A DNA stretch of 64,000 nucleotides from Rhodobiaceae bacterium. GTDB taxonomy: Bacteria; Pseudomonadota; Alphaproteobacteria; RS24. Location: positions 1 to 64,000 of the forward strand of contig JABJKE010000030.1 of the NCBI GenBank assembly GCA_018660505.1, written 5' to 3'. Positions 6,643 to 63,153 of the stretch are shown here, in pieces (the stretch's first letter is position 1; the number at the start of each line of letters is the position of its first letter). The notes under the pieces are model-generated. The model was not told the DNA's origin and did no database searches. It worked only from the letters and a program-made list of their open reading frames with translations. The position numbers and the translations under genes were made by a program.

Positions 6643-6644
6643 GA

Positions 6645-7841
6645 TTAAGGCGCCTCTGTTAAAGTGGGGGTCAAGGGGTCCAGTATCTCGGTCGTCTCAG
6701 TTGCCTCAGTTGCCTCGGTCGTCTCGAGGAGGCCAATCGTGGGGGCAATATAGGCGGTCACGCCCAGCGCCTCGGCGGTCTCGACATTGGCCACTTGGCG
6801 CGCGCTTGGCGTGCCACCGAGCACTAATTCATTCTGGTTCAGGTTGGAGATAAACTGCGGCACGGAGCCGATATAAACCAAGTCGACATAGGCATAATCT
6901 TTGCTCAGCTCTACAATCGTCACCTCACGAACCAAATCGACGGCGTTCAAACGGTCGAGCAGACGGGTCCAATCCGATAGGCTGGTGTAACTGGCGCGCA
7001 CTTGCAGCACTTGTTTTTCATCCGACACCACCGCGGCCACAGATTTCCACCGCGCCGCCAATATGCCCATCACATCATCAATGGCGCGTTGGCCCATCTG
7101 CGGATGCGGCGTGCCCGTGCGATAGGTTTTCACAATCACATCGCTTTCCTCGGCGCCAAAAATATAGGCCGTGACGCCCAATTGCCCGTCCACATCGGCC
7201 AGCGCATGCGCCACCACCACGGTGTCAGTGCCATAGCGTTCGTTGAGCCGTTGTAATTTGGCCGGGTCGCCGATGAGGATATCTTCTGCATTAGCGATTT
7301 CCGTATCTTCCAAATCACCCAGCGGCAGCAGCATGGGCGCCAGACTATTGTCTATGTCATAGGCGGCCCATTCTTGGCGCCACCAATGTTCGCCCCAGCT
7401 TTGCAGGCCCTCTAAATCTTCCAAAACCGGCAGTAAAAGAGCGGGCGGGCTTTGCACCTCGGTGATGGCCACGCCGGCGCCGCGCAATAATTCGCGCATG
7501 GGCGCTGGCTTAAACTGTACCGATAAAGTGGCCAAATAGCGCCCTGGCCCGGTTTTCTCGTCAGATATGCGCAAGCCCTCCACGAGGTTTTCAAAGTCTA
7601 GGCTTTGCACCTCTGGCAGTTTTTCCCATTCTTCTTGTTTGGTGAGACGTTGCAGAACCATAGACAGGGCTTTGGTTTGGCCGTCGCGCAAGGCGGCGGC
7701 ACGCGCCAAACTGGTAGAGGCGGCGCTGGCATCGACTTTAATTTTCTGCACTTCAAAAACATTGCCCGCCTGCGCCGACGCCACCCCCCAAAAGAGGGCG
7801 AGAAGCACAAATAGGCATTTGGAAAACAGAGGTTTTTTCAT
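6645..7841 (-). CDS. DUF2066 family protein with signal peptide
   Basis: MKKPLFSKCLFVLLALFWGVASAQA signal peptide; VFEVQKIKVDASAASTSLARAAALRDGQTKAL typical of DUF2066 next to purM. Confidence 0.75.
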   Translation of the reverse strand: MKKPLFSKCLFVLLALFWGVASAQAGNVFEVQKIKVDASAASTSLARAAALRDGQTKALSMVLQRLTKQEEWEKLPEVQSLDFENLVEGLRISDEKTGPGRYLATLSVQFKPAPMRELLRGAGVAITEVQSPPALLLPVLEDLEGLQSWGEHWWRQEWAAYDIDNSLAPMLLPLGDLEDTEIANAEDILIGDPAKLQRLNERYGTDTVVVAHALADVDGQLGVTAYIFGAEESDVIVKTYRTGTPHPQMGQRAIDDVMGILAARWKSVAAVVSDEKQVLQVRASYTSLSDWTRLLDRLNAVDLVREVTIVELSKDYAYVDLVYIGSVPQFISNLNQNELVLGGTPSARQVANVETAEALGVTAYIAPTIGLLETTEATEATETTEILDPLTPTLTEAP

Positions 7842-7978
7842 AGCGGCCAAGTTACCGCGCAGTTTCCTCCACGGCAATCACTTAAAGTTGCATTTACGGG
7901 GTTACATTACCCCCGATGCAGGCTATTTTGTGGCAGGTTTTCGATTCCGTTGCCTATTCTGCGTGCCTTGAGGTGATT

Positions 7979-9046
7979 ATGTCCGGTAATAGCAAAACAC
8001 CCCTTACTTACGCCCAAGCTGGCGTGGATATTGAGGCGGGCAATGATTTGGTCAAACGCATCGGCCCGCTGGCCAAATCGACCACCCGCCCGGGCGCCGA
8101 TGTCGACCTTGGTGGCTTCGGTGGCTTGTTTGATCTGGCGGCCTGCAAATTTGACGATCCGGTTTTGGTGGCGGCCAATGATGGCGTCGGCACCAAACTA
8201 AAGATTGCCATTGAAGCCAATAAACACGACACCGTGGGCATTGATTTGGTCGCCATGTGCGTCAATGACCTCATTGTGCAAGGCGCAGAGCCCCTGTTTT
8301 TCTTAGATTATTTCGCTTCTGGCAAATTAGACGTCGAGGCCGCCACAAATGTCATTGCGGGCATTGCCGAAGGCTGTCGCCAAGCCAATTGCGCGCTTAT
8401 CGGCGGCGAGACGGCCGAAATGCCCGGCATGTATGCAGCGGGTGATTATGATTTAGCGGGTTTCTCGGTCGGGGCGGTGGAGCGCAATCACATTTTGCCG
8501 ACCAAAGATATGGCCGAAGGCGATGTGATTTTAGGTCTGGCGTCCAACGGCTTGCACTCGAACGGATTTTCTTTGGTGCGCCGTCTGGTGGAGGCTGAAA
8601 GCTTGGCGTGGGATGCGCCCTCGCCTGCCGCACCTAGCCAAAGCCTCGCCGAAGATTTACTGACCCCGACGCGGATTTACGTGCGCGCCGTTTTGGCCGC
8701 CCTGAAAGCCAAGGCGCCGATAAAAGGCCTGGTGCATATCACGGGCGGTGGGTTTCAAGAAAACCTGCCCCGGGTTTTAACAGATGATTTGGCCGCCCAT
8801 ATTGATTTATCGGCTTGGAAATTACCGCCCATCTTCCAATGGGTGCAAAAAGCGGGCGCCGTGGAACAGGCGGAACTTTTACGCACGTTCAATTGCGGCA
8901 TTGGCATGGCCCTCGTGGTGCCAGCCAAGGCGGCCGCCGATGTGATGGCCGTGCTGGCCAAACAAGGCGAGACGGTTCTGCCCATCGGCAGCCTCACCCG
9001 ACGCCAAGGGGATGGCGTAACTTTTTCCGGAACGCTATCTGCATGA
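7979..9046 (+). CDS. purM: Phosphoribosylformylglycinamidine cyclo-ligase
   Basis: [20 protein letters not shown]..., [22 protein letters not shown]. Confidence 0.95.
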
Positions 9047-9636
9047 AGCAACAACCGACAAAAGTCGCCGTACTTTTCTCGGGTCGGGGCAGCAATCTCA
9101 AAACCCTCGCCGAATATATGGCACAGCCCCATGTGCCAGCAGAGCTGGTTTTGGCGCTCAGCAACCGCCCCAAGGCTGGCGGGCTGGATTATTGCGCCAG
9201 CCAAGCCATCCCCCATCAGGCCATTGACCACAAGCTTTATGAGACGCGCGAAAGTTTCGACGCGGATTTAGACGTTGCCCTGCGCGCCGCCAAAGTCGAG
9301 CTGATTTGCTGCGCTGGTTTCATGCGCTTGTTAAGCGCTGGTTTTGTCGAGGCATGGCGCGACCGCCTGATCAATATTCACCCGTCGCTTTTACCCAAAT
9401 ACAAAGGGCTGCACACCCATGCCCGCGCCATCGAAGCAGGCGACAAAATACATGGCTGTAGCGTCCATTACATGCGACCCGAAATGGACGCGGGGCCGGT
9501 GATTGTGCAAAAACAAGTGCCGATTTTACCCGACGACACGCCCGACACGCTGGCCGAGCGGGTTTTGCAGCAAGAACATATTGCCTATCCAGAGGCTTTG
9601 GATGCGGTGCTCAAAAAAATGGCGAGCCCAGCTTAA
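9043..9636 (+). CDS. purN: Phosphoribosylglycinamide formyltransferase
   Basis: [54 protein letters not shown] overlap with purM. Confidence 0.95.
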
Positions 9637-9652
9637 GCCGTCTCGCCATTTT
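9613..9652 (-). terminator. Intrinsic terminator of ndk, overlapping the 3' end of purN
   Basis: 11-bp perfect stem AAAATGGCGAG/CTCGCCATTTT (9616-9626/9642-9652); on the minus strand followed by a 7-T tract. Confidence 0.7.
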
Positions 9653-9674
9653 CTAACTTCCTTGGGTTGGCTAA

Positions 9675-10097
9675 TTAGCCAACCAATTCGTCATCCGCGA
9701 AGAAGAATTTAATCTCTTCGGCAGCGGTTTCTGGCGCGTCCGAGCCATGCACGGAATTGGCATCAATGCTCTCTGCGAAATCTTTGCGAATGGTGCCGGC
9801 ATCGGCTTCGGCTGGGTTGGTGGCGCCCATAATTTCGCGGTTTTTCGCGATGGCGTTTTCGCCTTCCAGCACTTGCACAACCACCGGGCCGGAAATCATG
9901 AAATCGACCAAATCATTGTAGAAGGGGCGCTCTTTGTGGACGCCGTAAAATTCGCCCGCTTGCTCGCGCGTCATATGAATACGTTTAGAAGCAACAATGC
10001 GCAGGCCATTGCTTTCGAACCGGTCAATAATTTTACCTGTCAGATTGCGTTTGGTGGCATCGGGTTTGATAATCGAAAAAGTGCGCTCAAGAGCCAT
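9675..10097 (-). CDS. ndk: Nucleoside diphosphate kinase
   Basis: [43 protein letters not shown]. Confidence 0.97.
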
Positions 10098-10223
10098 GAG
10101 TAAATCCCCAAATAGGTTAAGTCAGAATTAAAATTGCGTTCAATTGCCCGCTTTATAGGCGAGCTTTTAGTCCAGCGCAAGCAATGGAAAAAGAGCGCAA
10201 GCAATGGGGAAGGACACGCCGCC

Positions 10224-10685
10224 TTAGGCTTTTTTCTGCCAAGTGTCGTCATCGCCCTGCTGCCAATAGGTCAGCTCATGCGGCCCCGTCTTCAAGCTCG
10301 ACCATTGCGCGCGGGCGCGCGCCAAGCTTTCTTCATCGCGGCCATCGAATAAAAACACGCAGCGCTCGAAACCATCCAACTCGGGTCGCGACGCGCCATC
10401 GACCAAAAACAACACATTGGCGGCATTGGGCGTCTCCGCCTCATCGGTTAGCCATATCGGTTGCTCGGCCGCAATATGGGCAAAGCGCGCGTCGCCTTTG
10501 GCCGCATGGGGCAAAAACGCCGTATCGCGATAGGTCCATAAATGGCTATCGAGGCTGGCCAAACGGTCTGGGGACGCCACTTGAACGATGGCTTTCCAGC
10601 CGCGCTCCAGCGTTTTCTCCAAAAGCGCGGGCAAGACCTGTTCTAGGGTATGGCGCTCCAAATGATAGAACAGCACCTCGCTCAT
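10224..10685 (-). CDS. holC: DNA polymerase III chi subunit
   Basis: MSEVLFYHLERHTLEQVLPALLEKTLERGWKAIVQ...; adjacent to pepA as in many Alphaproteobacteria. Confidence 0.85.
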   Translation of the reverse strand: MSEVLFYHLERHTLEQVLPALLEKTLERGWKAIVQVASPDRLASLDSHLWTYRDTAFLPHAAKGDARFAHIAAEQPIWLTDEAETPNAANVLFLVDGASRPELDGFERCVFLFDGRDEESLARARAQWSSLKTGPHELTYWQQGDDDTWQKKA

Positions 10686-12169
10686 TATTCGTAATGCGCT
10701 TTTACCAAACGGTCGAGCAAGCGCACGCCGTAACCCGAAGCCCAAGTGCGGCTGATGGAAGACTTCGGCGAGCCCATGGCGGTGCCCGCAATATCCAAAT
10801 GCACCCAAGGCACTTTATTGGTGAAGCGCAGCAAGAATTGCGCCGCCGTCGAGGAGCCCGCATAGCGCCCGCCGATGTTTTTCATATCGGCGTTCGGCGT
10901 GTTGATCATTTTGTCGAAATTATCATTCATCGGCATGCGCCAGACTTTCTCGCCTTCTTGATTGCCAATCGCTGTCAATTGCTCCGCCAATCTATCATCG
11001 TTGGAAAACAGCCCCGCATAATCTTGCCCCAAAGCCACCATAATGGCGCCCGTCAGGGTCGCTAAATCAATCATGAATTTCGGCTTGAAGCGTTTTTGCG
11101 TATACCAAAGCGCATCGGCCAAAACCAAACGGCCTTCGGCATCGGTGTTCAACACTTCAATCGTTTGGCCCGACATAGAGGTCACAATATCGCCGGGGCG
11201 CTGCGCGTCACCATCGGGCATATTTTCCACCAGCCCCAAAACGCCCACCGCATTGACTTTGGCTTTGCGCGACGCCAAAGCGTGCATAAGCCCCGTCACC
11301 GCGGCGGCGCCGCCCATATCGCCTTTCATTTCTTCCATGCCGCCAGCTGGCTTGATGGAAATACCGCCCGTATCAAAACACACGCCCTTGCCGACAAAGG
11401 CGACGGGTTGTTTGGATTTGGCGGCGCCTTGCCATTGCATCACCACCAATTGGCTGGGTTGGCGGCTGCCCTGCCCGACGCCCAAAAGCGAACCCATGCC
11501 CAGCTTTTTCATTTTCGCTTCGCTCAATACTTCCACTTTCACGCCCAGCTTGCTGAGCCTTTTGGCGCGTTTGGCAAATTCGGGTGGGGTCAAAATATTG
11601 GCTGGTTCATTGACCAAATCGCGCGCCACAATCGTGCCTTCCGCGATGGCTTTCAGCTCGGAGAAATTTTTGCGCGCGGCTGCCATGGCTTTGGTCGCCA
11701 CCACAAATTTAGACGGGCCGCCTTTGGTTTTGCCTTTGGTCTTATAGGTCTCGAATTTATAATCGCGCAACAAGGCGCCAGTTGCGGCACGCGCGGCAAT
11801 ATCGGCATCGCTGAGCGCTTTATTGCCCGCGGGCTCCAGCAGCAGCGTGACGACGCCATCGGCTTTCTCGACAGTGCCCAATGCCGTGCCACCCATTTTT
11901 TCGGCGTCGGCGGCAGTTAATTTTTTGCCATCGCCAAGCCCCAGAACCACAATCCGGTCGAGCGTGGTTTTGGCTGGTGCCAGAAGCGCGAACATGGCGC
12001 CGGCTTTGCCAGAGAATTTTTTAATCTTTATGGCGCGTGAAATCGCGCCGCCAGTTTGCTTGTCCACCTGCTTGCCCAAGGGAGAGAGCTTGCCGCCATC
12101 CGTGGCCGTGAGGATGAGAGAGCCTTTTGTCGGCAGCGTGTCTTTGGTGAAGGAAATAGATAGGGACAT
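10685..12169 (-). CDS. pepA: Leucyl aminopeptidase (M17)
   Basis: VGKGVCFDTGGISIKPAGGMEEMKGDMGGAAAV and NTDAEGRLVLADAL. Confidence 0.95.
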   Translation of the reverse strand: MSLSISFTKDTLPTKGSLILTATDGGKLSPLGKQVDKQTGGAISRAIKIKKFSGKAGAMFALLAPAKTTLDRIVVLGLGDGKKLTAADAEKMGGTALGTVEKADGVVTLLLEPAGNKALSDADIAARAATGALLRDYKFETYKTKGKTKGGPSKFVVATKAMAAARKNFSELKAIAEGTIVARDLVNEPANILTPPEFAKRAKRLSKLGVKVEVLSEAKMKKLGMGSLLGVGQGSRQPSQLVVMQWQGAAKSKQPVAFVGKGVCFDTGGISIKPAGGMEEMKGDMGGAAAVTGLMHALASRKAKVNAVGVLGLVENMPDGDAQRPGDIVTSMSGQTIEVLNTDAEGRLVLADALWYTQKRFKPKFMIDLATLTGAIMVALGQDYAGLFSNDDRLAEQLTAIGNQEGEKVWRMPMNDNFDKMINTPNADMKNIGGRYAGSSTAAQFLLRFTNKVPWVHLDIAGTAMGSPKSSISRTWASGYGVRLLDRLVKAHYE

Positions 12170-12356
12170 GGTTTTCTCCGATAGGGAGCGAGAGGGAAGA
12201 ATAAACAATTGCCTCTATGCCTCGCTCAAACAGTAGGCTTGAAATCGTTTCAGAATGCCAACATTATGGCGTAAATGACTAGTCGTCCAGCGCCATTTAG
12301 GGTAACACTGACAGCTGATTGATATGGCGCTACATCGTCTCAAAACGAGTCTAAAA

Positions 12357-13628
12357 ATGAAATCTTTTGTAAGCCTTTTGCCGAAGCAACAATTCATCGG
12401 CCTGACCCTAGCTTTATCGCTAAGCCTTTTGCTTGGCCCTTTTGCCACCAGCGCCCAAGCGGCGCAGCAACGCGACGTCGAAGGCATTGCCGCCATCGTC
12501 AATGACCAAGTCATCTCGCTGTTCGATGTCGACCAACGCGTCGATTTGTTTTTCGCCACTTCCGGTATTGAAAAATCTCCCGAAATGACCGAGCGCATGC
12601 GGGCGCAAGTTTTGCGGTCGCTGGTTGATGAGAAATTACAATTGCAAGAAGCCGAGCGGGTGGAAATATCCATCGCCGCCAAAGAGGTCGAAGACCGGAT
12701 GAAAGTTTTGGCGACCGAAGGCAAAATGACGCTCGAGGGCATTAAGAAATTCTTGTCTGAGAAAAATATTGAAACCACCTCGCTGGAACAACAATTGCGC
12801 GCCGAACTGGCGTGGAGCCAATTTGTCCGTCGCAGTTTTGGCGGACGGGTGAAAGTGGGCGATCAAGAAATTGAAGAGCAATATAATAAAGCTGTGCGCG
12901 CGGTAAATCAGACGCGCTATTTGGTCAGTGAAATTCTGCTCAATCTGGATAATTTTTCCAATGAGGCGCAAGTCGCCCAATTGTCTGGCGAGATTGTCAA
13001 ACAGCTTCAATCGGGCGTGGCTTTTGGTGCCGTGGCGCGCCAATTCTCTATCGCCCCCACGGCGGCACGCGGCGGCCAATTGGGCTGGGTCACGGCCGAC
13101 CAATTAGACAGGCGCTTGGCCAGTGTCGTGCAAAACATGCAAGCCGGCCAAGTCTCGTCGCCCATCCCCACCAATGCGGGGCTTTATATCATCGCCCTCG
13201 CCGATAAGCGGGCCGGCGGCAATGACCCCAGCAAAAACCAATTTGACGTGCTGAGCCTCACCTTCCCGAAAGAGACCAAGGCCAGCAAAATAGATCGGTT
13301 CATCGCTGATTTTAAAACCTGCCGACGGGCGCAGCAAAGCGCCAAGAAAAGCAAAATTTCAGCCAAGCGAACGGGGCTGCGCGAATTGGGCCAGCTGACC
13401 CGCCAAATGGCTGGGGCTGTGGGCAATCTGGAGGCGGGTCAATTGGCCAATCCCCTCAGCACGGCGCAAGGCATTGAGCTTTATGCCGTTTGCGACCGCA
13501 AGGATGACCTCGGCATTGAGATTTCGCGCGACCAAATATCGGATAATATTTTTTCCCAACGCGTGGCGATGATGGCTCGGCGGCATTTGCGCGATTTGCG
13601 CCGCGATGCCGTTGTCGAATATCGTTAG
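12357..13628 (+). CDS. SurA-like periplasmic peptidyl-prolyl isomerase
   Basis: Signal peptide, VEGIAAIVNDQVISLFDVDQRVDLF, parvulin-like ARQFSIAPTAARGGQLGWV; directly upstream of rsmA. Confidence 0.8.
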   Translation: MKSFVSLLPKQQFIGLTLALSLSLLLGPFATSAQAAQQRDVEGIAAIVNDQVISLFDVDQRVDLFFATSGIEKSPEMTERMRAQVLRSLVDEKLQLQEAERVEISIAAKEVEDRMKVLATEGKMTLEGIKKFLSEKNIETTSLEQQLRAELAWSQFVRRSFGGRVKVGDQEIEEQYNKAVRAVNQTRYLVSEILLNLDNFSNEAQVAQLSGEIVKQLQSGVAFGAVARQFSIAPTAARGGQLGWVTADQLDRRLASVVQNMQAGQVSSPIPTNAGLYIIALADKRAGGNDPSKNQFDVLSLTFPKETKASKIDRFIADFKTCRRAQQSAKKSKISAKRTGLRELGQLTRQMAGAVGNLEAGQLANPLSTAQGIELYAVCDRKDDLGIEISRDQISDNIFSQRVAMMARRHLRDLRRDAVVEYR

Positions 13629-32051: not shown

Positions 32052-32209
32052 TGTGTTGTTGAGAAGGGCTCTGACGAGTTCCTGACACAAGAACTGAGAG
32101 CAGTTCTGGAATAATAAAAATAAGTTTCTGCGTTAGTTTGTTTCATACCTAATTTGTATTTGTGTGCATTATTATTGCAGCGCGCTCTCCTAATCAAAGG
32201 AGAACGAAA

Positions 32210-33553
32210 ATGAATTCAACAAAAATAGTCTTTAAATTTGAGCGCGTAGACGCTCAAGAAAATGGTTCAATTACGCGTATTGTAGGCCTAGCAAAAGCCC
32301 GTTCTATAGTAGATCTAATATCAGTAGGCGATTTAAGAGCAGACCCGCGGGAAGCTCGAGTAGGCAAGGTTACAAATGAAATCCTTGAAACACTGGAAAA
32401 ATCCCCCGAAATTTTCCCATTTAAATCCAAAGGCATACTATTAGCCTCCTCTAATTTTAAAAAATTGGAGAGAAATCGCTACGAACTTTCTTTCGAGCGT
32501 GACGAAGTAGAAGGTATTTTGGACGGAGGTCATAACACGCTGGCTATAGCATTGCATGCATTGCAGCAGTCAGAAGAATTTGGCCCGAAAGTCAAGCTAA
32601 TCAAACGATGGGGCGATGTCGAAAAAGTATGGCCTAAGGAAGAGCACAAACAAAAACGTCTAGGAAGTAATTTGGATTTTCTGGTACCGCTCGAGGTTAT
32701 TGTCCCAACCACTCAAAATGATGAGAATGAATTAATTTCATTCAGAAACTCAATTGCGGAGATTTCGCATGCCCGCAACAATAACGTTGAACTAAAAGTT
32801 TCAACGATGTCCAATCAAAAGGGTTTTTATGACCACTTAAAGTCTTCGATGGACAGTAAGATTAAAGATGAGGTCGAGTGGAAAACAAACGATGGTGGCC
32901 GAATTAAATCGGAACTGATTGTGGCATTAGCTTGGGTTCCTTTATTGCGCCTTAATTTAGAAGCGCTTCCCCGCGTGTCTCCTGTGCAACTTTATAGCTC
33001 AAAAGGAAAATGCACTGCTGTATTCGCGGATTTTATGGAACATGACAACGTCACAAGCCATTCACCAAATGATTACAAGCGTGAGCTTTCTAATCCCTTG
33101 GTCGGCAGTGCGTTTGAAATGCTTGCTCAATTGCCAGCACTATATGATCAAATATATGAATCGTTTCCTTCAGCTTATAATTCTACCGGGGGGAAATTTG
33201 GTCGGATTACCTGCGTCAAAATGTTCGATGGCATAGAAAAGTATAAAGAGAATCCGTCTACGTATTTGAAGCAACCACCCAAGACACGAATCTACCGTCG
33301 AGACGCCGTCTATCAGTACCCCGATGGATTCATCATGCCTCTCGTGGCTGGGCTTGGTGCCATAATGCATATTGAAAACGAAAAATTGGTCTGGGCTACA
33401 GAACCAACCACATTCCTAGACAATAACCTTAACGACATACTCAAGTCTTACAAACTCATGATGGATATGGCTAATTATGACCCTCAAAAGGTAGGTAAAA
33501 GCTTACCCTCGTATGAACTCACGCGGGACCTTTTTGCAAATCGATTAGGGTAA
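32210..33553 (+). CDS. AIPR/DGQHR-like accessory protein (tentative; possible phage-resistance-associated)
   Basis: RBS AAAGGAG upstream of ATG 32210; FPFKSKGILLASSNFKKLERNRYELSFERDEVEGILDGGHNTLAIALHAL followed by IAEISHARNNNVELKVSTM, layout resembling AIPR-type proteins; lower GC than neighbours. Confidence 0.5.
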   Translation: MNSTKIVFKFERVDAQENGSITRIVGLAKARSIVDLISVGDLRADPREARVGKVTNEILETLEKSPEIFPFKSKGILLASSNFKKLERNRYELSFERDEVEGILDGGHNTLAIALHALQQSEEFGPKVKLIKRWGDVEKVWPKEEHKQKRLGSNLDFLVPLEVIVPTTQNDENELISFRNSIAEISHARNNNVELKVSTMSNQKGFYDHLKSSMDSKIKDEVEWKTNDGGRIKSELIVALAWVPLLRLNLEALPRVSPVQLYSSKGKCTAVFADFMEHDNVTSHSPNDYKRELSNPLVGSAFEMLAQLPALYDQIYESFPSAYNSTGGKFGRITCVKMFDGIEKYKENPSTYLKQPPKTRIYRRDAVYQYPDGFIMPLVAGLGAIMHIENEKLVWATEPTTFLDNNLNDILKSYKLMMDMANYDPQKVGKSLPSYELTRDLFANRLG

Positions 33554-53547: not shown

Positions 53548-55527
53548 GTGTCATCTGTCAAAACCCGCTGGGGCATTCTGGCCACCGGCTCCATAGCCAC
53601 GCAATTTGCAACCGATTTACCCCATAGCCATACCGGCGTTTTAACGGGCGTCGCCAGCCGAGAGGCCAGCAAAGCGAAAGCTTTTTGCGAGACCCATGGC
53701 GGCACACCATCGGATTATGAAACGCTGCTGGCCAGAGACGATATTGACGCCGTCTATATCGCCACCCCGCACGACAGCCATTTGGCTTGGAGCCATAAAG
53801 CCATGGCCGCCGGCAAAGCGGTACTCTGCGAAAAACCGCTCGGCCTCAACCAAGGGCAGGTTTTAAACCTCTATGGCGAAGCCGCCAGAACCGATGTTTT
53901 GCTGGTCGAAGCGCTTATGTATCTCATGCATCCGCGCATGCATTTGGCCAAATCGCTCCTCGAGCAAGGCGCCATTGGCAAGCTCACAGGTTTCAGCGCT
54001 TCCTTCGGATTCGCTTTTCCTTTCACGCCCACACATCGCCTTTATGATATCGACCGCGCGGGCGGCGGCATTCTCGACATTGGTATTTACCCGCTCACCG
54101 CCGCTCGTTATTTCCTTGGCGAACCCATGGGGCTGACGGGGGAGGCGCGATTGGCCCCCAGTGGCGCCGACGCCGAAGCCAAAGCCACCCTCGCCTATGA
54201 CGGTTTTGAGGCGCATTTACATTGCGCCATCGACACGACGCTCGATTGGCACATCACCCTAGAGGGCGATGCGGGCGTGTTGAAAATCACGCAGCCGTGG
54301 CACCCGGGGCCGGAGAATAATCATATTTCCATCACCGATATAGCCGGCAAAGAAACCCTTCATCGCAGCGACGACCAGCGCCCGCTCTATGCCATAGAGG
54401 CCGACCATATGGGCGCCCTCTTGGCGCGCGGGGCGAAAACCTCTGATTTGGTCACTCCCGATTTCAGCATTAACACCGCCTATTGGATGGACCGTTGGCG
54501 CGAAGCTGGCGGCGTCACCTATGCCGCCGACGCGCTCGCCGAAGTTGGCTTTCAGGGTCAGGCCGTGCGCCTCGGCGCCCATGGCTACTTGGAAACGGCG
54601 CGCTTGGGCGGGCTCGAAAAACCAGTCTCCAAATTAGTGCTGGGCACTGACAATCAAATCGACGCCTCGACCATGGCCGCCATGGCCGATGCCTTTGTCG
54701 AAGCGGGCGGCAATTGTTTCGACACGGCTTTCATTTACTCCGATGGCCGCTCCGAAGCCCTGCTGGGCGAATGGATGAAAGCGCGTGGCTTGCGCGATGA
54801 ATTGGTGGTTCTATCGAAAGGCGCGCATACGCCAGATTGCACGCCAGAGGCGGTTTCGCACCAATTGGATATCTCGTTGGAGCGGCTGCAAACCGATTAT
54901 CTCGACCTCTATTGCCTGCACCGCGATGACCCTCAGGTGCCCGTATCGGAATGGATAGATGTGCTGAACCGAGAGGTCGCAGCTGGCCGCATCGGTCAAT
55001 TTGGCGGCTCGAATTGGACCGCCGAGCGCGTCGATGAAGCCAATGCCTATGCCGACGCCAAGGGGCTGCAAGGCTTCTCGCTCTTGTCGAATAATTTCTC
55101 GCTGGCCCGCATGGAAACTCCGGTTTGGCCGGGCTGCTTGGCCAGCTCCACCGATGCGTTCCGCAATTGGCACACCAAAACCAACCTCGCGTTACTGCCA
55201 TGGTCGGCACAGGCGCGCGGCTTTTTCTTGGATTGGGAGGGCGCCGGCCTCGCCGCCACTCGCCATGGCGCCGACCCGAGCGATGAAGAAATGAATCGCG
55301 TTTGGGGCTCGGCCGATAATATGGAACGCCGCCGCCGGGCTTTTGACTTGGCGGAGAAACTTGGCGTCTCCGCTCTGCAAATCGCGCTGGCCTATGTGTT
55401 GCGCCAGCCCTTCCCATGTTTCGCCATCATTGGCCCGCGCACGCCCATGCAATTGCAAGACAGTTTGCGCGCCGCCGATATTCAGCTCACGGCGGCGCAA
55501 ATTAACTGGTTGGATTTGCGCGACTAA
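53548..55527 (+). CDS. Fusion protein: N-terminal Gfo/Idh/MocA oxidoreductase + C-terminal aldo/keto reductase
   Basis: N: GILATGSIATQFATDL, AVYIATPHDSHLAW, KAVLCEKPLGLN; C (from about residue 345): FVEAGGNCFDTAFIYSDGRSEALLGEWM, SLERLQTDYLDLYCLHRDDP. Confidence 0.9.
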   Translation: MSSVKTRWGILATGSIATQFATDLPHSHTGVLTGVASREASKAKAFCETHGGTPSDYETLLARDDIDAVYIATPHDSHLAWSHKAMAAGKAVLCEKPLGLNQGQVLNLYGEAARTDVLLVEALMYLMHPRMHLAKSLLEQGAIGKLTGFSASFGFAFPFTPTHRLYDIDRAGGGILDIGIYPLTAARYFLGEPMGLTGEARLAPSGADAEAKATLAYDGFEAHLHCAIDTTLDWHITLEGDAGVLKITQPWHPGPENNHISITDIAGKETLHRSDDQRPLYAIEADHMGALLARGAKTSDLVTPDFSINTAYWMDRWREAGGVTYAADALAEVGFQGQAVRLGAHGYLETARLGGLEKPVSKLVLGTDNQIDASTMAAMADAFVEAGGNCFDTAFIYSDGRSEALLGEWMKARGLRDELVVLSKGAHTPDCTPEAVSHQLDISLERLQTDYLDLYCLHRDDPQVPVSEWIDVLNREVAAGRIGQFGGSNWTAERVDEANAYADAKGLQGFSLLSNNFSLARMETPVWPGCLASSTDAFRNWHTKTNLALLPWSAQARGFFLDWEGAGLAATRHGADPSDEEMNRVWGSADNMERRRRAFDLAEKLGVSALQIALAYVLRQPFPCFAIIGPRTPMQLQDSLRAADIQLTAAQINWLDLRD

Positions 55528-55531
55528 GGCC

Positions 55532-57937
55532 CTAAGGCCGCAAGAGGCGCCATAAAAGGCGAAGCCAGCGATTGTTTAACGCCAGCAATAACAGCTCAAA
55601 GCGTTTGCCCGCCAAGGCGCCCGCCGACATATTGCTGACCGTGGTTAAGCGCATCGACATAATCATTTCTTCGCGCATTTTCACCGCCACGGGCGTGTCT
55701 TTGCCCTGCCCGAGGGCGGCACTGGCCATTTGCATGGCGGCCGCGGCCACCCGTTTGCCCAGCCAATGATAGCGAATATCGGCCAACGTAGAATTGGCAT
55801 GATAGGGTTTTATCGGGTCGGCTTTTGGCACCTGCACGCCCAAGGCCGAGAGCTGCGCATCGTTCATCACCACATAGGGCGCCTCGGCCAAAGGCTTTGA
55901 ATTGCGCTGCGAGCCGGCTGGCAAAGTGACCTGCAAACGCTCCCGAATATCGGTGGATGAGGCGGCAAATAGAATATCAAAATCGCCAGGTTCCAAATCG
56001 AAGTCATCCAAGGCGACGTCGAAATAAGCAAACGCCCGACGCCCCAAAGTGAAATCCACTTGCTGGGTTTCGCCCGGTTGCAGGGTGATTTTTTGAAATG
56101 CTTTCAACTCGCGGTCGGGGCGATAGGGCGTGCTTTCCACATCGCGCACATAGACTTGCAACACTTCCGCACCCGCCACAGAGCCCGCATTGGTAAGGCG
56201 CACCGACACGCTTATTTGCTCGCTATCTGGCGACCACGGGGCGCTGATTTTGGCATCGCTATAGGTAAATTTCGTATAGCTAAGGCCGTGTCCGAACGGG
56301 AAAAGCACCGGCACATCATGGCTGGTGAAATGGCGATAGCCGACGTTCAAGCCTTCGCGATAAACCAATTGGCGCGGGTGGCTGGCAAAATTTTGCTGGC
56401 TCGGGCTGTCTTGCAAATGCAGCGGAAAAGTTTCGGCCAATTTACCGCTTGGGGTGACGGCGCCATAGAGCAAATCCAGCAAGGCGCCTGCTCCGGCTTG
56501 GCCCGCCAGATAGATTTCCAACACGGCGGGCGTGGCGTCTATCCAAGGCATTTCAATCGGCGCGCCATTGGACAGCACCACCACCGTGTTCGGGTTGGCG
56601 GCGGCGACGGCTTCGATGAGGGTTTCAATTTGCGCAGGCTGTCGCAAATGCTCGCGGTCAAACCCTTCGGCTTCGAACAAGGGCGGCAGTCCGGCCATGA
56701 CAATCGCCACTTTCGCGGCCTTAGCTTTGGCCACAGCTTCTTCGATGAGGCTGGCATCCTCGGTGGCCAATTCGGCGTCAAAGCCTTGCGCGTAAGCGAC
56801 ATTGGCTTCGCCCAATTTTTCGCGCCAAAGCACCAGAGGGGTATCTATTTTAGTGGCATTAACTTGCGAACTACCGGCCCCTTGATAACGCGGCGTCTCG
56901 GCAAAGGCGCCGATAAGCGCCACGCTATCGGTGCTTGCCAGCGGCAAGATATCGCCTTGGTTTTTCAGCAAAACCGCGCCCTCAGCCGCCGCCTTGCGGG
57001 CCAGCGCATGATGCGCGTCGAAATCTATTTTTGTGTCGGCCGCATTATTTTGCGCCGCCAAAATCAGCTCGGTAACGCGCGCTGCCGCGCGGTCGAGATG
57101 CGCCACCTCCAGCGTGCCATCGTCTACGGCCGCTGCCACTTTGCGATCATTGACCCCGCCCGTGCTCGGCATTTCCAGCTCCAGCCCAGCCGCCACGCCA
57201 CGAACCCTGTCGTTGACGGCACCCCAGTCTGTGACCACCAGACCTTTAAAGCCCCACCGATCGCGCAAGATATCGCTCAATAGGGTTTCGTTTTCTGAGC
57301 AATAGACTCCGTTAAAGCGATTATAGGCACACATCAGCGTCCACGGTTGCACTTGCTTGACCGTGGTTTCAAAAGCCGGCAGATAAATTTCAAACAGGGT
57401 GCGATTGTCCACCAAAGTGTCCACCACCATGCGCTGCGCTTCTTGGTTGTTGACGGCGAAATGTTTCAAACTGGTGCCCGTCCCCGTCGATTGCACACCG
57501 CCGACAAATGCACTGGCCATTTCGCCCGCCTGATAGGGGTCTTCTGAGTAATATTCAAAGTTGCGACCACATAAAGGGCTGCGCTTTATATTCACACCGG
57601 GGGCCAATAATACCGAGACATTCTCGGCCAAACACTCTCGGCCAATGGCGGCCCCGACGTCGCTTATCAACGCCCGATCCCAGCTCGAGGCCAAAGTAAC
57701 AGCGGTTGGAAAACAAGTGGCGGGCACAGCAGCGCTTAAGCCCATATGGTCTGATTTGGCACCTTGCTTGCGCAGCCCATGCGGCCCGTCAGAGACCATA
57801 ACTTTAGAGAGGCCAAATTCTTCGATGGGTTGCAAATCCCAAAAACTAGAGCCCGACATAAGCGAGGCTTTCGCCGCCACCGACATTTGCGCCACTAAGT
57901 TTTGCGCTTCGCCTTCAAACTGCCATGGTTGTTTCAT
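55532..57937 (-). CDS. Glycoside hydrolase family 3 (beta-glucosidase-like)
   Basis: 801 aa; VSDGPHGLRKQG, GRNFEYYSEDPYQAGEMASAFV, VVTDWGAVNDRVRGVAAGLELEMPS, FPFGHGLSYTKF; no obvious signal peptide. Confidence 0.92.
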   Translation of the reverse strand: MKQPWQFEGEAQNLVAQMSVAAKASLMSGSSFWDLQPIEEFGLSKVMVSDGPHGLRKQGAKSDHMGLSAAVPATCFPTAVTLASSWDRALISDVGAAIGRECLAENVSVLLAPGVNIKRSPLCGRNFEYYSEDPYQAGEMASAFVGGVQSTGTGTSLKHFAVNNQEAQRMVVDTLVDNRTLFEIYLPAFETTVKQVQPWTLMCAYNRFNGVYCSENETLLSDILRDRWGFKGLVVTDWGAVNDRVRGVAAGLELEMPSTGGVNDRKVAAAVDDGTLEVAHLDRAAARVTELILAAQNNAADTKIDFDAHHALARKAAAEGAVLLKNQGDILPLASTDSVALIGAFAETPRYQGAGSSQVNATKIDTPLVLWREKLGEANVAYAQGFDAELATEDASLIEEAVAKAKAAKVAIVMAGLPPLFEAEGFDREHLRQPAQIETLIEAVAAANPNTVVVLSNGAPIEMPWIDATPAVLEIYLAGQAGAGALLDLLYGAVTPSGKLAETFPLHLQDSPSQQNFASHPRQLVYREGLNVGYRHFTSHDVPVLFPFGHGLSYTKFTYSDAKISAPWSPDSEQISVSVRLTNAGSVAGAEVLQVYVRDVESTPYRPDRELKAFQKITLQPGETQQVDFTLGRRAFAYFDVALDDFDLEPGDFDILFAASSTDIRERLQVTLPAGSQRNSKPLAEAPYVVMNDAQLSALGVQVPKADPIKPYHANSTLADIRYHWLGKRVAAAAMQMASAALGQGKDTPVAVKMREEMIMSMRLTTVSNMSAGALAGKRFELLLLALNNRWLRLLWRLLRP

Positions 57938-58077
57938 GTCGCACCCTCTAAATAACTTGAAAACTCAATCGATTGCGGCCAGTTTAGGCGAGGCTTAGAA
58001 GAGACACAAGCAAAGCATAATCTAGGGCGATGCGGATGTGGCTTTGCCAAGTCTATGGCCTTGCGAGGAGACCTTAA

Positions 58078-58710
58078 ATGCGAGATATCGTGCGTAATTA
58101 TGTAACCCACACCAGCGTTCAAATGCTGTTTTTAGCCTCTGTTTTCAGCCTATATATGGTCGCCAGCCAAGCGCTTTGGATATATTGGCCTTGGGCGGTT
58201 TTAGTGGTTGTCTCGGCGCCGTTTTTTGAATGGGTCACGCATAAATATACGTTGCACCGCGACCTCACCGACAAGCCCGGGTTTTGGCGCGACTATCAAA
58301 TCCGTTTGCACCACGGCCATCACCTTTACCCCGAGCGGCGCGATTTGCAGTTCGCGCCCACCAGCGCCATCGTGATTATGTTCGTTCAACTTTACGCCAG
58401 CTACGCGCTGATGATTTATCTGGTGGGCCATCCCCATCCCGCCGTCTGGGTGCCTTTGCTGGCGTCGCTGGTCTATTATTTGGTCTATGAATGGACCCAT
58501 TTGGCGCATCATACCCAAAGCTATAAGCCGCTCACCCGATGGGGCGGGAGCTTGCGCGAGGCGCATATGCGGCATCATTTTCACAATGAGAATTACAATT
58601 GGGGCATCACCAATGGGCTTGGCGATGTGCTGCTCGGCACGTGGAAAACCACTCAAGATGCGCAAAAAAGCGCCACTGCCAAAAAACTCTCTGGCTTTGA
58701 CGGAGCGTAA
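58078..58710 (+). CDS. Fatty acid hydroxylase / sterol desaturase superfamily protein
   Basis: HKYTLHR, LHHGHHLYPERRD, HLAHHTQSY, HMRHHFHNENYNWGITN. Confidence 0.88.
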   Translation: MRDIVRNYVTHTSVQMLFLASVFSLYMVASQALWIYWPWAVLVVVSAPFFEWVTHKYTLHRDLTDKPGFWRDYQIRLHHGHHLYPERRDLQFAPTSAIVIMFVQLYASYALMIYLVGHPHPAVWVPLLASLVYYLVYEWTHLAHHTQSYKPLTRWGGSLREAHMRHHFHNENYNWGITNGLGDVLLGTWKTTQDAQKSATAKKLSGFDGA

Positions 58711-58716
58711 CCGAGC

Positions 58717-59781
58717 ATGAATGAAATTAACCTTGGCATCATCGGCACGGGCCTCATGGGCTTTGAGCATATTCAAAACTTCAACTTGCTGGAAGGCGCG
58801 CGCGTCGCCGCTTTGGCCGACACAGATGCGACCATGCTGGCCAAAGCCGAGGCCATGAGCGCCGACAGCCCGCGCACGAGCGATGATTATGAAACGCTGT
58901 TGAGCGACGAAAGCCTAGATGCGCTGGTCATTGCCACGCCCAATTTTCATCATATTGAGGTTTTGCGCGCCGCCCTGAGCAGCGGCAAGCCGATATTATG
59001 CGAAAAGCCGCTTTGCACCACTTTGGCCGATACCGACGCGGTGAGGCAGCAAGTGACGCGCGATAATCTGACCTTTCAAGTGGGCATGGAATATCGCTTC
59101 AAGCCTGCTTTGGCCGAGATGATTACGCGCGTCGAGCGCGGCGATGCAGGCTTTGTGCATATGCTTTCCATCCGCGAGCATCGGTTTCCCTTTCTGCCGA
59201 AAGTCAACGATTGGAACCGATTTAATGCCAATACAGGCGGCACATTGGTCGAAAAATGCTGCCATTTCTTTGACCTGATGCGGCTCATCCTCGGTAGCGA
59301 GCCGGTGAGCGTGGTGGCTTCGGCGGGGCAAAACGTCAATCATTTGAACGAGACCTATGCTGGCCAGACGCCCGATATTTGGGACAATGGCTATGCGGTT
59401 TTCGATTTCGAAAACGGCGCCCGCGCCATGCTCGACCTATGTATGTTTGCCGAAGGGTCGCGCCATTCGGAAGAATTAGCCGCCATGGGCGATAAGGCCA
59501 AAGTCGAATGCCTGTTGCCGCAAAACATCGTCACCCACGGCCATAGAGATACTTGGGTCGTCGATAAAACCGACATTCATGTGCCGGAAGAAATTTTAAA
59601 CGCGGGCTATCACTCGGGCGCCACTTACCATCAGAACCAAGCCTTTTTGGCCGCTGTGCGCGGCGAGGCAGAGGTCATTGTTACCGCCGAAGATGGCCAT
59701 CGCGCGGTGGCCATGGGTGTGGCGGCTCAAATGGCGGCGCGCGAAAAACGCCGCGTAGATATGACGGAGCTAGGACTATGA
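58717..59781 (+). CDS. Gfo/Idh/MocA-family protein (oxidoreductase, or candidate NAD+-dependent glycosidase)
   Basis: LGIIGTGLMGFEHIQNFNLL, ALVIATPNFHHIEVLRAAL, KPILCEKPLCTT, GGTLVEKCCHFFDLMRLI. Confidence 0.9.
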   Translation: MNEINLGIIGTGLMGFEHIQNFNLLEGARVAALADTDATMLAKAEAMSADSPRTSDDYETLLSDESLDALVIATPNFHHIEVLRAALSSGKPILCEKPLCTTLADTDAVRQQVTRDNLTFQVGMEYRFKPALAEMITRVERGDAGFVHMLSIREHRFPFLPKVNDWNRFNANTGGTLVEKCCHFFDLMRLILGSEPVSVVASAGQNVNHLNETYAGQTPDIWDNGYAVFDFENGARAMLDLCMFAEGSRHSEELAAMGDKAKVECLLPQNIVTHGHRDTWVVDKTDIHVPEEILNAGYHSGATYHQNQAFLAAVRGEAEVIVTAEDGHRAVAMGVAAQMAAREKRRVDMTELGL

Positions 59782-60692
59782 ACGCAATTGGAGCCGATGA
59801 AAATCTTGTCGATGGCGGGCCCCGCCAGTTAGGCGATACGCCGATTGGCGCGCTGGGTTTTGGCTGCTGGCGCCTAGTGGGCGACGATGTGGCCGATGCC
59901 ACCACGCGCATTGAAACCGCGCTCGATTGCGGCATGACCTTGATCGATAATGCCGATGTCTATGGCCTCGATTGGGGCGGCAAAGCCTTTGGCGAGAGCG
60001 AGACTCTGCTCGGCAAAGTGCTGGCCCGCACGCCCAATTTACGCCAACGCATGGTGTTGGCCAGCAAGGGCAGCATAATGCCGGGCGTGCCCTATGTCGC
60101 CAATGCCGCCTATTTGACCGGTGCCGTCGATGCCTCTCTGGCGCGCCTGCAAAGTGCGCATATCGACCTCTATCAAATTCATCGTCCCGATATGTTTACC
60201 CATCCGGCCGAAACCGCCGCCGCGCTCGATGGCTTGGTGCAGGCGGGGAAAATTGGCAAAGTGGGCGTCTCGAATTACACCAAAGCCCAGACCGACGCCC
60301 TGCGCCATTTCCTCAAAGCGCCGCTGGTCAGCGTGCAATCTGAATATTCGCTGAGCCATTTACAGCCGTTGCGCGATGGCACGTTGGATGAATGCCTGCG
60401 CCACGACACGGCTTTTCTGGCTTGGTCGCCGCTTGGCGGGGGCGCGCTTTTGGGGCCAGATGTGGCCCCGGCGCTTGGGCAATTACTCGACCAATTGGCC
60501 GCGCGCGAAAACACCGACCGCGCGGGCATTGCTTTGGCCTTTGTTCTGGCCCATCCGTCTCGCCCCGTTGCGCTGCTTGGCTCGCAATCAGTGACACGGA
60601 TGAAAGCGGCGCAAAAAGTCACCCAGCTGACATTGACACGCGGGGACATCTACGCCCTGATAGAGGCCGCCGAGGGCGTGCCCCTTCCCTAG
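59778..60692 (+). CDS. Aldo/keto reductase
   Basis: LGFGCWRLVGDD, GMTLIDNADVYG, SLARLQSAHIDLYQIHRPD, GKIGKVGVSNYT; ATGA overlap with preceding CDS. Confidence 0.92.
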   Translation: MNAIGADENLVDGGPRQLGDTPIGALGFGCWRLVGDDVADATTRIETALDCGMTLIDNADVYGLDWGGKAFGESETLLGKVLARTPNLRQRMVLASKGSIMPGVPYVANAAYLTGAVDASLARLQSAHIDLYQIHRPDMFTHPAETAAALDGLVQAGKIGKVGVSNYTKAQTDALRHFLKAPLVSVQSEYSLSHLQPLRDGTLDECLRHDTAFLAWSPLGGGALLGPDVAPALGQLLDQLAARENTDRAGIALAFVLAHPSRPVALLGSQSVTRMKAAQKVTQLTLTRGDIYALIEAAEGVPLP

Positions 60693-60713
60693 TCCATCGC
60701 CAAAGGAGCCGAT

Positions 60714-61808
60714 ATGACCGCCCTGCCTCAAGCCGAAATCAGTTGGTTTTCCGCGCTTTGCGACGATGATTACCAATTTTTAGGCGTCGAAGACCCCAAG
60801 CTGAAAGCCAGTTGGCCGCATTGTCGCGATATCGCCCAAACCGCCGATAAAAACGGTTTCGACAATATTCTACTGCCCTCCGGCTATGCGCTGGGCATGG
60901 ATAGCATCGCTTTCGCGGGCGGCATTGCGCCCCTGCTGGAGCAAATGCGTTTGCTGGTGGCCGTGCGCTGCGGCGAAATGTGGGTGCCGCAATTGGCCCG
61001 CCAATTGGCCACGCTCGACCAAATGTTAAATGGCCGCCTGACCCTCAATATTATTTCGTCTGACCTGCCCGGCCAAACGCTGGAAGGGGGGCCACGCTAT
61101 CAACGCACGCGCGAGACCATGCAGGCTTTGCGGCAATTGCTAAATGGCCAACCTGTGCATATGGATGGCGAATTTGTGAAACTCGATTTAGAGCCGCCGC
61201 GCATCGGCACTGTGTCGGGCAAAAGCCCACCGTTTTACTTTGGCGGCCTGTCGCCCCCCGCTTGCGACGTGGCGGCCGCCGAGGCGGATGTGTTTTTAAT
61301 GTGGCCAGACACAATGGACAAAGTAAAAGCCATCCTCGACGATATGAAAAAACGCGCTGCGGGCTATGAGCGGCATCTGAAATTTGGCTATCGGGCGCAT
61401 GTGATTGTGCGCGAAACCGAGGCCGAAGCGCGCGACGCAGCCGCGCTATTGGTGAGCCGCCTCGACGATAAAATTGGCGAAGACATCCGCAATCGCTCGC
61501 TCGATAGCACGTCTCTTGGGGTGCGACGTCAGGCCGAAATGCGCCAAGCCGCCAATGCCGCCGGCAGCGGCGACTATGTCGAAGACAATCTATGGACTGG
61601 CGTTGGCCGCGCCCGCTCGGGCTGTGGGGCCGCCATTGTGGGCGACCCAGACCAAGTTTTGGCCAAGCTCAATGCCTATCGCGCGCTGGGCATTGAGAGC
61701 TTTATTCTATCCGGCTATCCGCATGCCCAAGAATGCGATTTATTCGCCAAATATGTGCTGCCGCAGCTTAACCATGGCACGCTTACCTTCCAAGCTTCGG
61801 AGGGCTAA
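60714..61808 (+). CDS. LLM-class flavin-dependent monooxygenase, alkanesulfonate monooxygenase (SsuD)-like
   Basis: DNILLPSGYALGMDSIAFAGG, LNIISSDLPGQTLEGGPRYQRTRETMQAL, PFYFGGLSPPACDVAA, FILSGYPHAQECDLFAKYVLPQL. Confidence 0.88.
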   Translation: MTALPQAEISWFSALCDDDYQFLGVEDPKLKASWPHCRDIAQTADKNGFDNILLPSGYALGMDSIAFAGGIAPLLEQMRLLVAVRCGEMWVPQLARQLATLDQMLNGRLTLNIISSDLPGQTLEGGPRYQRTRETMQALRQLLNGQPVHMDGEFVKLDLEPPRIGTVSGKSPPFYFGGLSPPACDVAAAEADVFLMWPDTMDKVKAILDDMKKRAAGYERHLKFGYRAHVIVRETEAEARDAAALLVSRLDDKIGEDIRNRSLDSTSLGVRRQAEMRQAANAAGSGDYVEDNLWTGVGRARSGCGAAIVGDPDQVLAKLNAYRALGIESFILSGYPHAQECDLFAKYVLPQLNHGTLTFQASEG

Positions 61809-62702
61809 ATGCGATTTGGATTGGACCTTGGCGGAACCAAAATGGAAGCCATTGTCATGGATGGCACAGGCCAGATTATCTGGCGCCAACGCGCGCCCAC
61901 GCCAGCCGAAGATTATGCCGCCATCGTGCAAACCATCGGCCAATTGGTCGAGGCGGGCGACGCCGCAGTTGGGGCGCGCGTGAGCGTCGGCATTGGCATG
62001 CCGGGCTCGCTGTCGCCAAAAACCGGATGGGTGCGAAACTCCAACACGTTAAGTTTAAACGGCCAGCCATTGCGCCAAGACTTAGAGGCGCGTTTGGGCC
62101 GCGAGGTTCGCCTCGCCAATGATGCCAATTGCTTCGCTTTGTCCGAGGCCACCGATGGGGCGGGCCAAGACGCCCAATCGGTTTTCGGGGTTATCCTTGG
62201 CACTGGCTGTGGCGGCGGTTTGGTGTTCTCTGGCCAATTGCAAAACGGCGTCAATGGCATTGGCGGGGAATGGGGGCACAACCCTTTGGCCGCGCCGACG
62301 GCAGACGAAGTGCCGGGCCCAGCGTGTTATTGTGGCCGCCATGGCTGCAATGAAGTTTGGATATCCGGCTCTGGCTTTGCCCGCGACCATAATTTGATAA
62401 ACCAAGACAATCTGTCCAGCGAAGCCATTATCGCCAGCGACACGCCCGCCGCTCAAGCCAGTTTCGAGCGCCTCTGTGACCGGCTGGCGCGCGCTTTGGG
62501 CGCGGTTATTAATCTCGTCGACCCCGAGGTTATCGTCTTGGGCGGCGGCTTGTCGAATGTCGATGCGCTGTACCAAAGATTGCCGCAAATCTGGGATGCG
62601 TATATATTCTCAGATGTCATTGAAACGCAGCTGAAGAAAAACCAGCACGGCGATAGCAGTGGCGTTAGAGGGGCCGCTTGGCTCTGGCCAAATCAGGCTT
62701 AA
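61809..62702 (+). CDS. ROK family sugar kinase
   Basis: FGLDLGGTKMEAIVMD, GTGCGGGLVFSGQLQNGVNGIGGEWGHNPL, CYCGRHGCNEVWISG zinc motif. Confidence 0.92.
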   Translation: MRFGLDLGGTKMEAIVMDGTGQIIWRQRAPTPAEDYAAIVQTIGQLVEAGDAAVGARVSVGIGMPGSLSPKTGWVRNSNTLSLNGQPLRQDLEARLGREVRLANDANCFALSEATDGAGQDAQSVFGVILGTGCGGGLVFSGQLQNGVNGIGGEWGHNPLAAPTADEVPGPACYCGRHGCNEVWISGSGFARDHNLINQDNLSSEAIIASDTPAAQASFERLCDRLARALGAVINLVDPEVIVLGGGLSNVDALYQRLPQIWDAYIFSDVIETQLKKNQHGDSSGVRGAAWLWPNQA

Positions 62703-62748: not shown

Positions 62749-63153
62749 ATGTTTAGTGAAATTATGCCAAGCGCTGCTTATGACGCGCTGCAAAAAGATG
62801 CCGACGCGCAACTTATCGATTGCCGCTCGATGGCCGAATGGAACCTCATCGGCACGCCAGATTTAAGCCCCATCGGCAAGCAAGTTGCCTGTCTGGAATG
62901 GCAAAGCGTCGACGGCCAGCGCAATGAGGCCTTTTGCAGCAAAGTCATCGAACATATCGACAAAGCCACTTCTATTTATGTAATTTGCCGCTCGGGCGCG
63001 CGCTCCGCCGCCGCTTGCCAAGCTTTGGCCGAAGCCGGTTTTACCAGCTTATTTAACGTGAGCGGCGGTTTTGAAGGCAATACAGACTTGCAAGGCCATC
63101 GTGGCACCCAAGAGGGCTGGAAATTCGAGGGGCTGCCCTGGCGTCAGCCATAA
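62749..63153 (+). CDS. Rhodanese-like domain protein
   Basis: LIDCRSMAEWNLIGTPDL, IYVICRSGARSAAACQALAEAGF. Confidence 0.9.
   Translation: MFSEIMPSAAYDALQKDADAQLIDCRSMAEWNLIGTPDLSPIGKQVACLEWQSVDGQRNEAFCSKVIEHIDKATSIYVICRSGARSAAACQALAEAGFTSLFNVSGGFEGNTDLQGHRGTQEGWKFEGLPWRQP

Follow-up and report, generated by a model that had tools for sequence, protein, structure and literature searches.

A stretch of 64,000 nucleotides of contig JABJKE010000030.1 (the window) carries four consecutive genes that very probably encode a cytoplasmic sulfo-SMO (also called sulfo-ASMO) route for sulfoquinovose (SQ). Its host is an alphaproteobacterium of the PS1/'Rhodobiaceae' clade with a genome of 1.77 Mb (46 contigs, 94% complete), and the genes encode, in this order, a Gfo/Idh/MocA-type protein, an aldo/keto reductase (AKR), an LLM monooxygenase and a ROK kinase. 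An earlier note, made from the letters of the window, had read them as a sulfo-sugar desulfonation pathway of liberation, desulfonation, reduction and phosphorylation. That reading is supported by the relationship of the first protein to family GH188, by the placement of the LLM protein, and by the conservation and co-occurrence of the genes. The pathway is a known one and brings no new chemistry; what had no description in the papers searched is its occurrence in the PS1 lineage and as a reduced gene set that includes a sugar kinase.

The glycosidase and monooxygenase candidates

A search of the PDB with the Gfo/Idh protein shows that it is far closer to 8ZN9 (3e-94) and to the GH188 structures ArSqgA (8QC3, 3e-88) and FlSqgA (8QC2, 2e-86) than to the best ordinary dehydrogenase (1.5e-24), with about 300 bits for GH188 structures versus 90 for the dehydrogenase. 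SQ is contacted in ArSqgA by K107, Y136, E189, H193 and H321 plus a sulfonate triad formed by R166, L170 and K172 (PMC10755693), and the residues touching the hydroxyls and the sulfonate are all conserved across the aligned set. The window protein is 45% identical to ArSqgA, and the alignment equates K107, Y136, E164, R166, L170, K172, E189, H193 and H321 of ArSqgA with its K97, Y126, E154, R156, L160, K162, E179, H183 and H299, the sulfonate triad being kept as R156, L160 and K162. The glutamate is named as Glu163 in PMC10755693 and falls at 164 in the alignment, which may be a numbering difference and leaves the other residues unaffected. On sequence grounds the protein is a GH188 NAD+-dependent sulfoquinovosidase with intact substrate and sulfonate residues, as the earlier note had proposed. 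A sugar or inositol dehydrogenase would fit the domain databases, since Pfam and NCBIfam show only Gfo/Idh domains and the top NCBIfam match, under its cut-off, is inositol 2-dehydrogenase; given the bit scores and the complete set of catalytic and sulfonate-binding residues, however, we consider this highly improbable.

The LLM protein was compared in the same way. Its nearest PDB matches are the sulfoquinovose monooxygenases 7OLF (1e-109) and 7OH2 (3e-106), with 359-370 bits to SmoC structures versus about 199 bits (9e-58) to SsuD. In the maximum-likelihood tree it groups with SmoC-like proteins, with full support and separately from SsuD and MsuD, and not among non-sulfonate oxygenases. It also carries all 36 of the 36 SmoC-distinguishing residues, defined by conservation of at least 97% among SmoC-like proteins and by a different state in SsuD and MsuD. 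The AlphaFold model (pLDDT 87) has 7OH2 and 7OLF as its best Foldseek matches by E-value. The protein has 51% identity with SmoC of Agrobacterium; identity is higher, about 61-72%, with the SmoC-like proteins found in sphingomonads, some actinobacteria and others. Active-site positions were mapped through alignments with a one-residue offset, SsuD residues being used in place of SmoC's own: W197, R227, H229, R301, Y335 and H337 correspond to Trp196, Arg226, His228, Arg297, Tyr331 and His333 of SsuD. At the position of SsuD cysteine 54 the window protein has Leu and SmoC has Val.

By tree position and diagnostic residues, the LLM protein belongs with the SmoC/SquD sulfoquinovose monooxygenases and not with SsuD/MsuD, in agreement with the earlier note. 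An ordinary SsuD/MsuD-type alkanesulfonate oxygenase, lying beside unrelated sugar genes in a generic sulfur-starvation locus, is suggested by the top NCBIfam match, the SsuD model TIGR03565, which is the nearest model in NCBIfam. This match reaches 250.6 bits against a cut-off of 518.2, however, and in view of the scores to SmoC structures, the fully supported split from SsuD/MsuD and the adjoining GH188 gene with its complete sulfonate triad, we give this explanation almost no weight. The genome encodes a second LLM protein, on contig C2, which was considered as a relative of the first and gave no significant BLASTP match to it.

The reductase, the kinase and the proposed route

The AKR has an intact catalytic tetrad (D57, Y62, K97 and H135), and its AlphaFold model (pLDDT 90) has 7TWZ, SmoB (7BBZ) and YdhF as nearest folds. 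Its identity is 41-57% to those AKRs that sphingomonads, actinobacteria and others encode next to a SmoC-like gene. A DWGGxxFG-type loop is missing from SmoB, from its Roseobacter and rhizobial counterparts and from YdhF, and another insertion is common to all of these. The earlier note had likened the AKR to SmoB; the operon does hold, beside the monooxygenase gene, a reductase of the SmoB/SquF kind known from the pathway, an AKR with an intact tetrad, but the enzyme is not of the SmoB type, to which it is 32% identical and from which its loop pattern differs. Judged by this pattern, it is SquF-like, matching the AKRs linked to SquD-type genes in sphingomonads (Novosphingobium) and actinobacteria; the label SquF-type refers to the linkage to SquD-type genes in Novosphingobium. 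Generally, two loop types can be told apart among the AKRs that accompany SmoC-like genes, one SmoB/YdhF-like (Roseobacter, rhizobia) and one SquF-like (elsewhere). The reductase may have been exchanged as the pathway evolved; the root of the AKR tree hangs on a very long outgroup, and we make no claim of separate recruitment of the SmoB and SquF types.

The ROK protein retains its motifs for nucleotide, sugar and zinc binding (LGGTK, NDAN, EWGH and CYCGRHGCNE). Its nearest structures include the N-acetylglucosamine kinase 4DB3, and its top NCBIfam model is fructokinase, under its cut-off. Since SQ has no C6 hydroxyl, a kinase acting at C6 could work only after desulfonation, and glucose is the expected substrate.

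We infer the following reactions for this organism, taking the chemistry of the pathway from PMC12890257 and the GH188 mechanism from PMC10755693. After uptake, probably through a TonB receptor and some inner-membrane carrier, an SQ glycoside such as sulfoquinovosyl glycerol would be transiently oxidised at C3 by GH188 with its bound NAD+, which would eliminate the aglycone and return SQ. The SmoC/SquD-type monooxygenase would then oxidise C6 of SQ, giving sulfite and 6-oxo-glucose, with FMNH2 supplied by a shared, unlinked flavin reductase. Using NAD(P)H, the AKR would reduce 6-oxo-glucose to glucose, which the ROK kinase would phosphorylate at C6 for entry into central metabolism.

The same four-step logic could serve for another C6-sulfonated sugar, be it a stereoisomer (sulfofucose, for instance) or some other sugar resembling SQ. 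The PS1 sequences do form a branch of their own, their AKR is not SmoB-type, and further sulfo-sugars occur in nature (PMC12421959). However, every contact of ArSqgA with the hydroxyls and the sulfonate of SQ is conserved, including E189, which contacts the C4 hydroxyl, and the LLM protein has every SmoC-distinguishing residue, so that another substrate appears improbable.

Gene context, supply functions and neighbouring genes

The open reading frame (ORF) coordinates agree with the spacing given in the earlier note: a 4-bp ATGA overlap between the GH188 and AKR genes, a gap of 21 nt between the AKR and LLM genes and of 0 nt between the LLM and ROK genes, all on the + strand, with a rhodanese ORF 46 nt past the ROK gene. 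A domain search also returned the families named there for the Gfo/Idh, AKR, LLM, ROK and rhodanese genes (Table 1). Every gene from FA_hydroxylase to rhodanese is under purifying selection (dN/dS 0.03-0.17 against close relatives), and because the gene order also recurs in relatives, a chance arrangement of the four genes is excluded.

Table 1. Features of the proposed sulfoquinovose locus and its borders in the window
Feature	Coordinates	Strand	Size and basis
Likely operon promoter region: 140 nt separating FA_hydroxylase from the divergent GH3 gene	57938..58077	.	sequence position
FA_hydroxylase membrane di-iron-type protein	58078..58710	+	PF04116, His-box motifs
GH188-type NAD+-dependent sulfoquinovosidase by sequence, SqgA-like, Gfo/Idh/MocA fold	58717..59781	+	354 aa; PF01408/PF02894, PDB matches, aligned residues
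AKR, SquF-type, predicted to convert 6-oxo-glucose to glucose	59778..60692	+	304 aa; PF00248, tetrad, model
Predicted FMNH2-dependent sulfoquinovose monooxygenase, SmoC/SquD-type LLM	60714..61808	+	364 aa; PF00296, PDB matches, tree, residues
ROK hexokinase, predicted glucose kinase	61809..62702	+	297 aa; PF00480 (1e-76), motifs
Rhodanese-domain protein, CRSGAR active loop, optional neighbour	62749..63153	+	PF00581

Of 28 family genomes, 18 have the LLM gene and 17 have the GH188 gene; the remaining ten have neither. The difference is due to one genome (G023) in which GH188 is seen only as a contig-end fragment beside the AKR and LLM genes; with this fragment counted, the two genes co-occur in 18/28 and neither is found alone. 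The order GH188-AKR-LLM is kept in three genera. ROK is present in two of them, and in the third (g6) apparent biotin-carrier and carboxylase genes follow the LLM gene instead. One case of separated LLM and AKR genes (L015/G014), in which LLM lies at a contig end and which is possibly an assembly artefact, was not used. Linkage of ROK is a feature of PS1, found in 10 of 14 PS1 loci versus 0 of 73 other SmoC-like loci. Past the ROK gene, some PS1 relatives have the rhodanese gene and others have FadD directly; a possible role of the rhodanese is in handling the sulfite.

The genome has a single flavin reductase (PF01613), on contig C19 and unlinked to the operon. Its orthologue is found in 26/28 family genomes, pathway-negative ones included, and in 15/15 of good quality, and it therefore has the look of a shared housekeeping enzyme, an arrangement in agreement with the pathway's two-component scheme (PMC12890257). 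Statements of absence for this genome refer to single-family searches of a fragmented draft. No GH31 was found in such a search, and GH188 is therefore the only sulfoquinovosidase type seen.

Contig C19 (48000-67000) also holds the only TRAP binding protein, about 3 kb from the flavin reductase, with an apparent arginyltransferase gene and an SLC13-type permease gene between them. We considered this region as a second SQ locus and rejected it: compared with its counterpart in the Ruegeria cluster, the TRAP protein aligns over part of its length, at only 23% identity; the TRAP and flavin reductase genes differ in strand and are separated by unrelated genes; and relatives that lack the pathway also keep the flavin reductase.

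Several observations weigh against the assignment of the four genes to SQ degradation. The AKR is about equally close to YdhF (35% identity) and to SmoB, a search of the genome for PF01547 sugar-binding proteins found none, and linked transporters, regulators and flavin reductases are missing from all 14 PS1 loci (GH31, TonB receptor, MFS, LacI regulator and linked flavin reductase each 0). Genes that seem to be missing from this draft could also lie in its gaps.

The lack of transport and regulatory genes would be explained if the main purpose of the same chemistry were sulfur scavenging, or recycling of the organism's own sulfolipid, and not the use of external SQ as carbon. This alternative, which differs in purpose and not in chemistry, takes further support from the absence of PF01547 and from the rhodanese gene adjoining in some genomes. 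Against it, linkage of a ROK kinase speaks for use as a carbon source, and elsewhere the genome has six TonB-receptor matches, the one TRAP binding protein and five TauE-family carriers. We regard it as rather unlikely, if the most serious of the alternatives. A self-contained form of the pathway in PS1, with four steps in one short operon, no dedicated transporter, regulator or flavin reductase, and SQ glycosides obtained through general carriers or from its own sulfolipid, is a suggestion that we put forward tentatively.

Upstream of the GH188 gene, a FA_hydroxylase gene that the earlier note had overlooked ends 6 nt before it on the same strand, and the transcription unit therefore probably begins there; the likely transcript is FA_hydroxylase - Gfo/Idh - AKR - LLM - ROK - (rhodanese). 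No sigma-70-like match was reported in the 140-nt region before it (57938-58077). FA_hydroxylase adjoins the GH188 gene throughout the clade. As a component of the pathway it was rejected, its orthologue occurring without GH188 or LLM in three genomes of genus g5 and in another context in the two that were viewed more widely. It is treated here as a neighbour, probably co-transcribed with the operon and not specific to the pathway.

Divergent from the operon lies a GH3 glycosidase gene (55532-57937, - strand), whose top NCBIfam model, exo-alpha-(1->6)-L-arabinopyranosidase, is far under its cut-off. Next to it, a single ORF (53548-55527) encodes a 659-aa fusion of a Gfo/Idh/MocA oxidoreductase and an aldo/keto reductase, and two PS1 genera keep both the fusion and the adjoining GH3 gene upstream of the SQ operon. 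Elsewhere in the window, a 463-aa ORF (32162-33553) of unusually low third-position GC (0.40) has a match to the AIPR domain (abortive-infection phage resistance type) and no PADLOC match.

Significance and relation to known systems

Each year about 10 billion tons of sulfoquinovose are made (PMC10755693). In aquatic habitats, turnover of the sugar is credited mainly to groups such as Roseobacter, rhizobia, Novosphingobium and Vibrio. Among the main texts of the open-licence literature we found no paper linking the PS1 clade to sulfoquinovose, and a survey from 2026 that looked for SQ degraders among aquatic genomes names no PS1, Rhodobiaceae or Parvibaculum-type bacteria in its main text. If the pathway is active, a clade of small genomes that carries it in about two thirds of the sampled species joins the complete SQ mineralisers. 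The GH188-AKR-LLM-ROK signature can be used in metagenome searches; those demanding linkage to a gene for flavin reductase, GH31 or a transporter would overlook the operon.

Sulfo-SMO has been called widespread (PMC13372026). The 73 other SmoC-like loci, which are the nearest relatives found and not a random sample, several of them incomplete, have AKR in 68, a TonB receptor in 51, LacI in 46, GH31 in 43, MFS in 38, GH188 in 15, flavin reductase in 3 and ROK in none. The earlier note had suspected a minimal or divergent arrangement; this holds for the lack of GH31, transporter and regulator in the PS1 loci, but the unlinked flavin reductase is ordinary. On a plasmid of Emticicia oligotrophica (Bacteroidota; 6489-12417), a divergent SmoC-like LLM gene (46% identity) lies beside a sodium/solute symporter gene and a GH95-family gene with no annotated AKR, possibly a different sulfo-sugar route.

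SqgA was discovered in another pathway, the sulfo-EMP of Arthrobacter, and the window protein shares with it all the substrate-contact residues. GH188 has already been described in marine Roseobacter sulfo-SMO clusters (PMC10755693). The Roseobacter-type and rhizobial clusters (Ruegeria sp. THAF33, Marinovum algicola and Rhizobium sp. SL42) resemble that of PS1 in grouping LLM, AKR and a GH188-like Gfo/Idh gene, their LLM being about 50% identical to that of the window, but they differ in including a regulator, a transporter of the TRAP or ABC kind and a linked flavin reductase, their AKR is SmoB-type, and they lack ROK. SmoC of Agrobacterium tumefaciens (7OLF) is the nearest solved sequence and has the SmoC-distinguishing residues, whereas the PS1 proteins form their own branch nearer the sphingomonad and actinobacterial ones. 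Nearer to PS1 in LLM and AKR are the SquD/SquF clusters (sulfo-ASMO) of Novosphingobium and other sphingomonads, with an LLM 62-70% identical and an AKR that has the PS1 loop pattern. As annotated, the N. pentaromativorans cluster likewise has no linked flavin reductase, and sphingomonad clusters differ from those of PS1 in having mostly GH31, plus TonB receptor, MFS and LacI genes, and no ROK.

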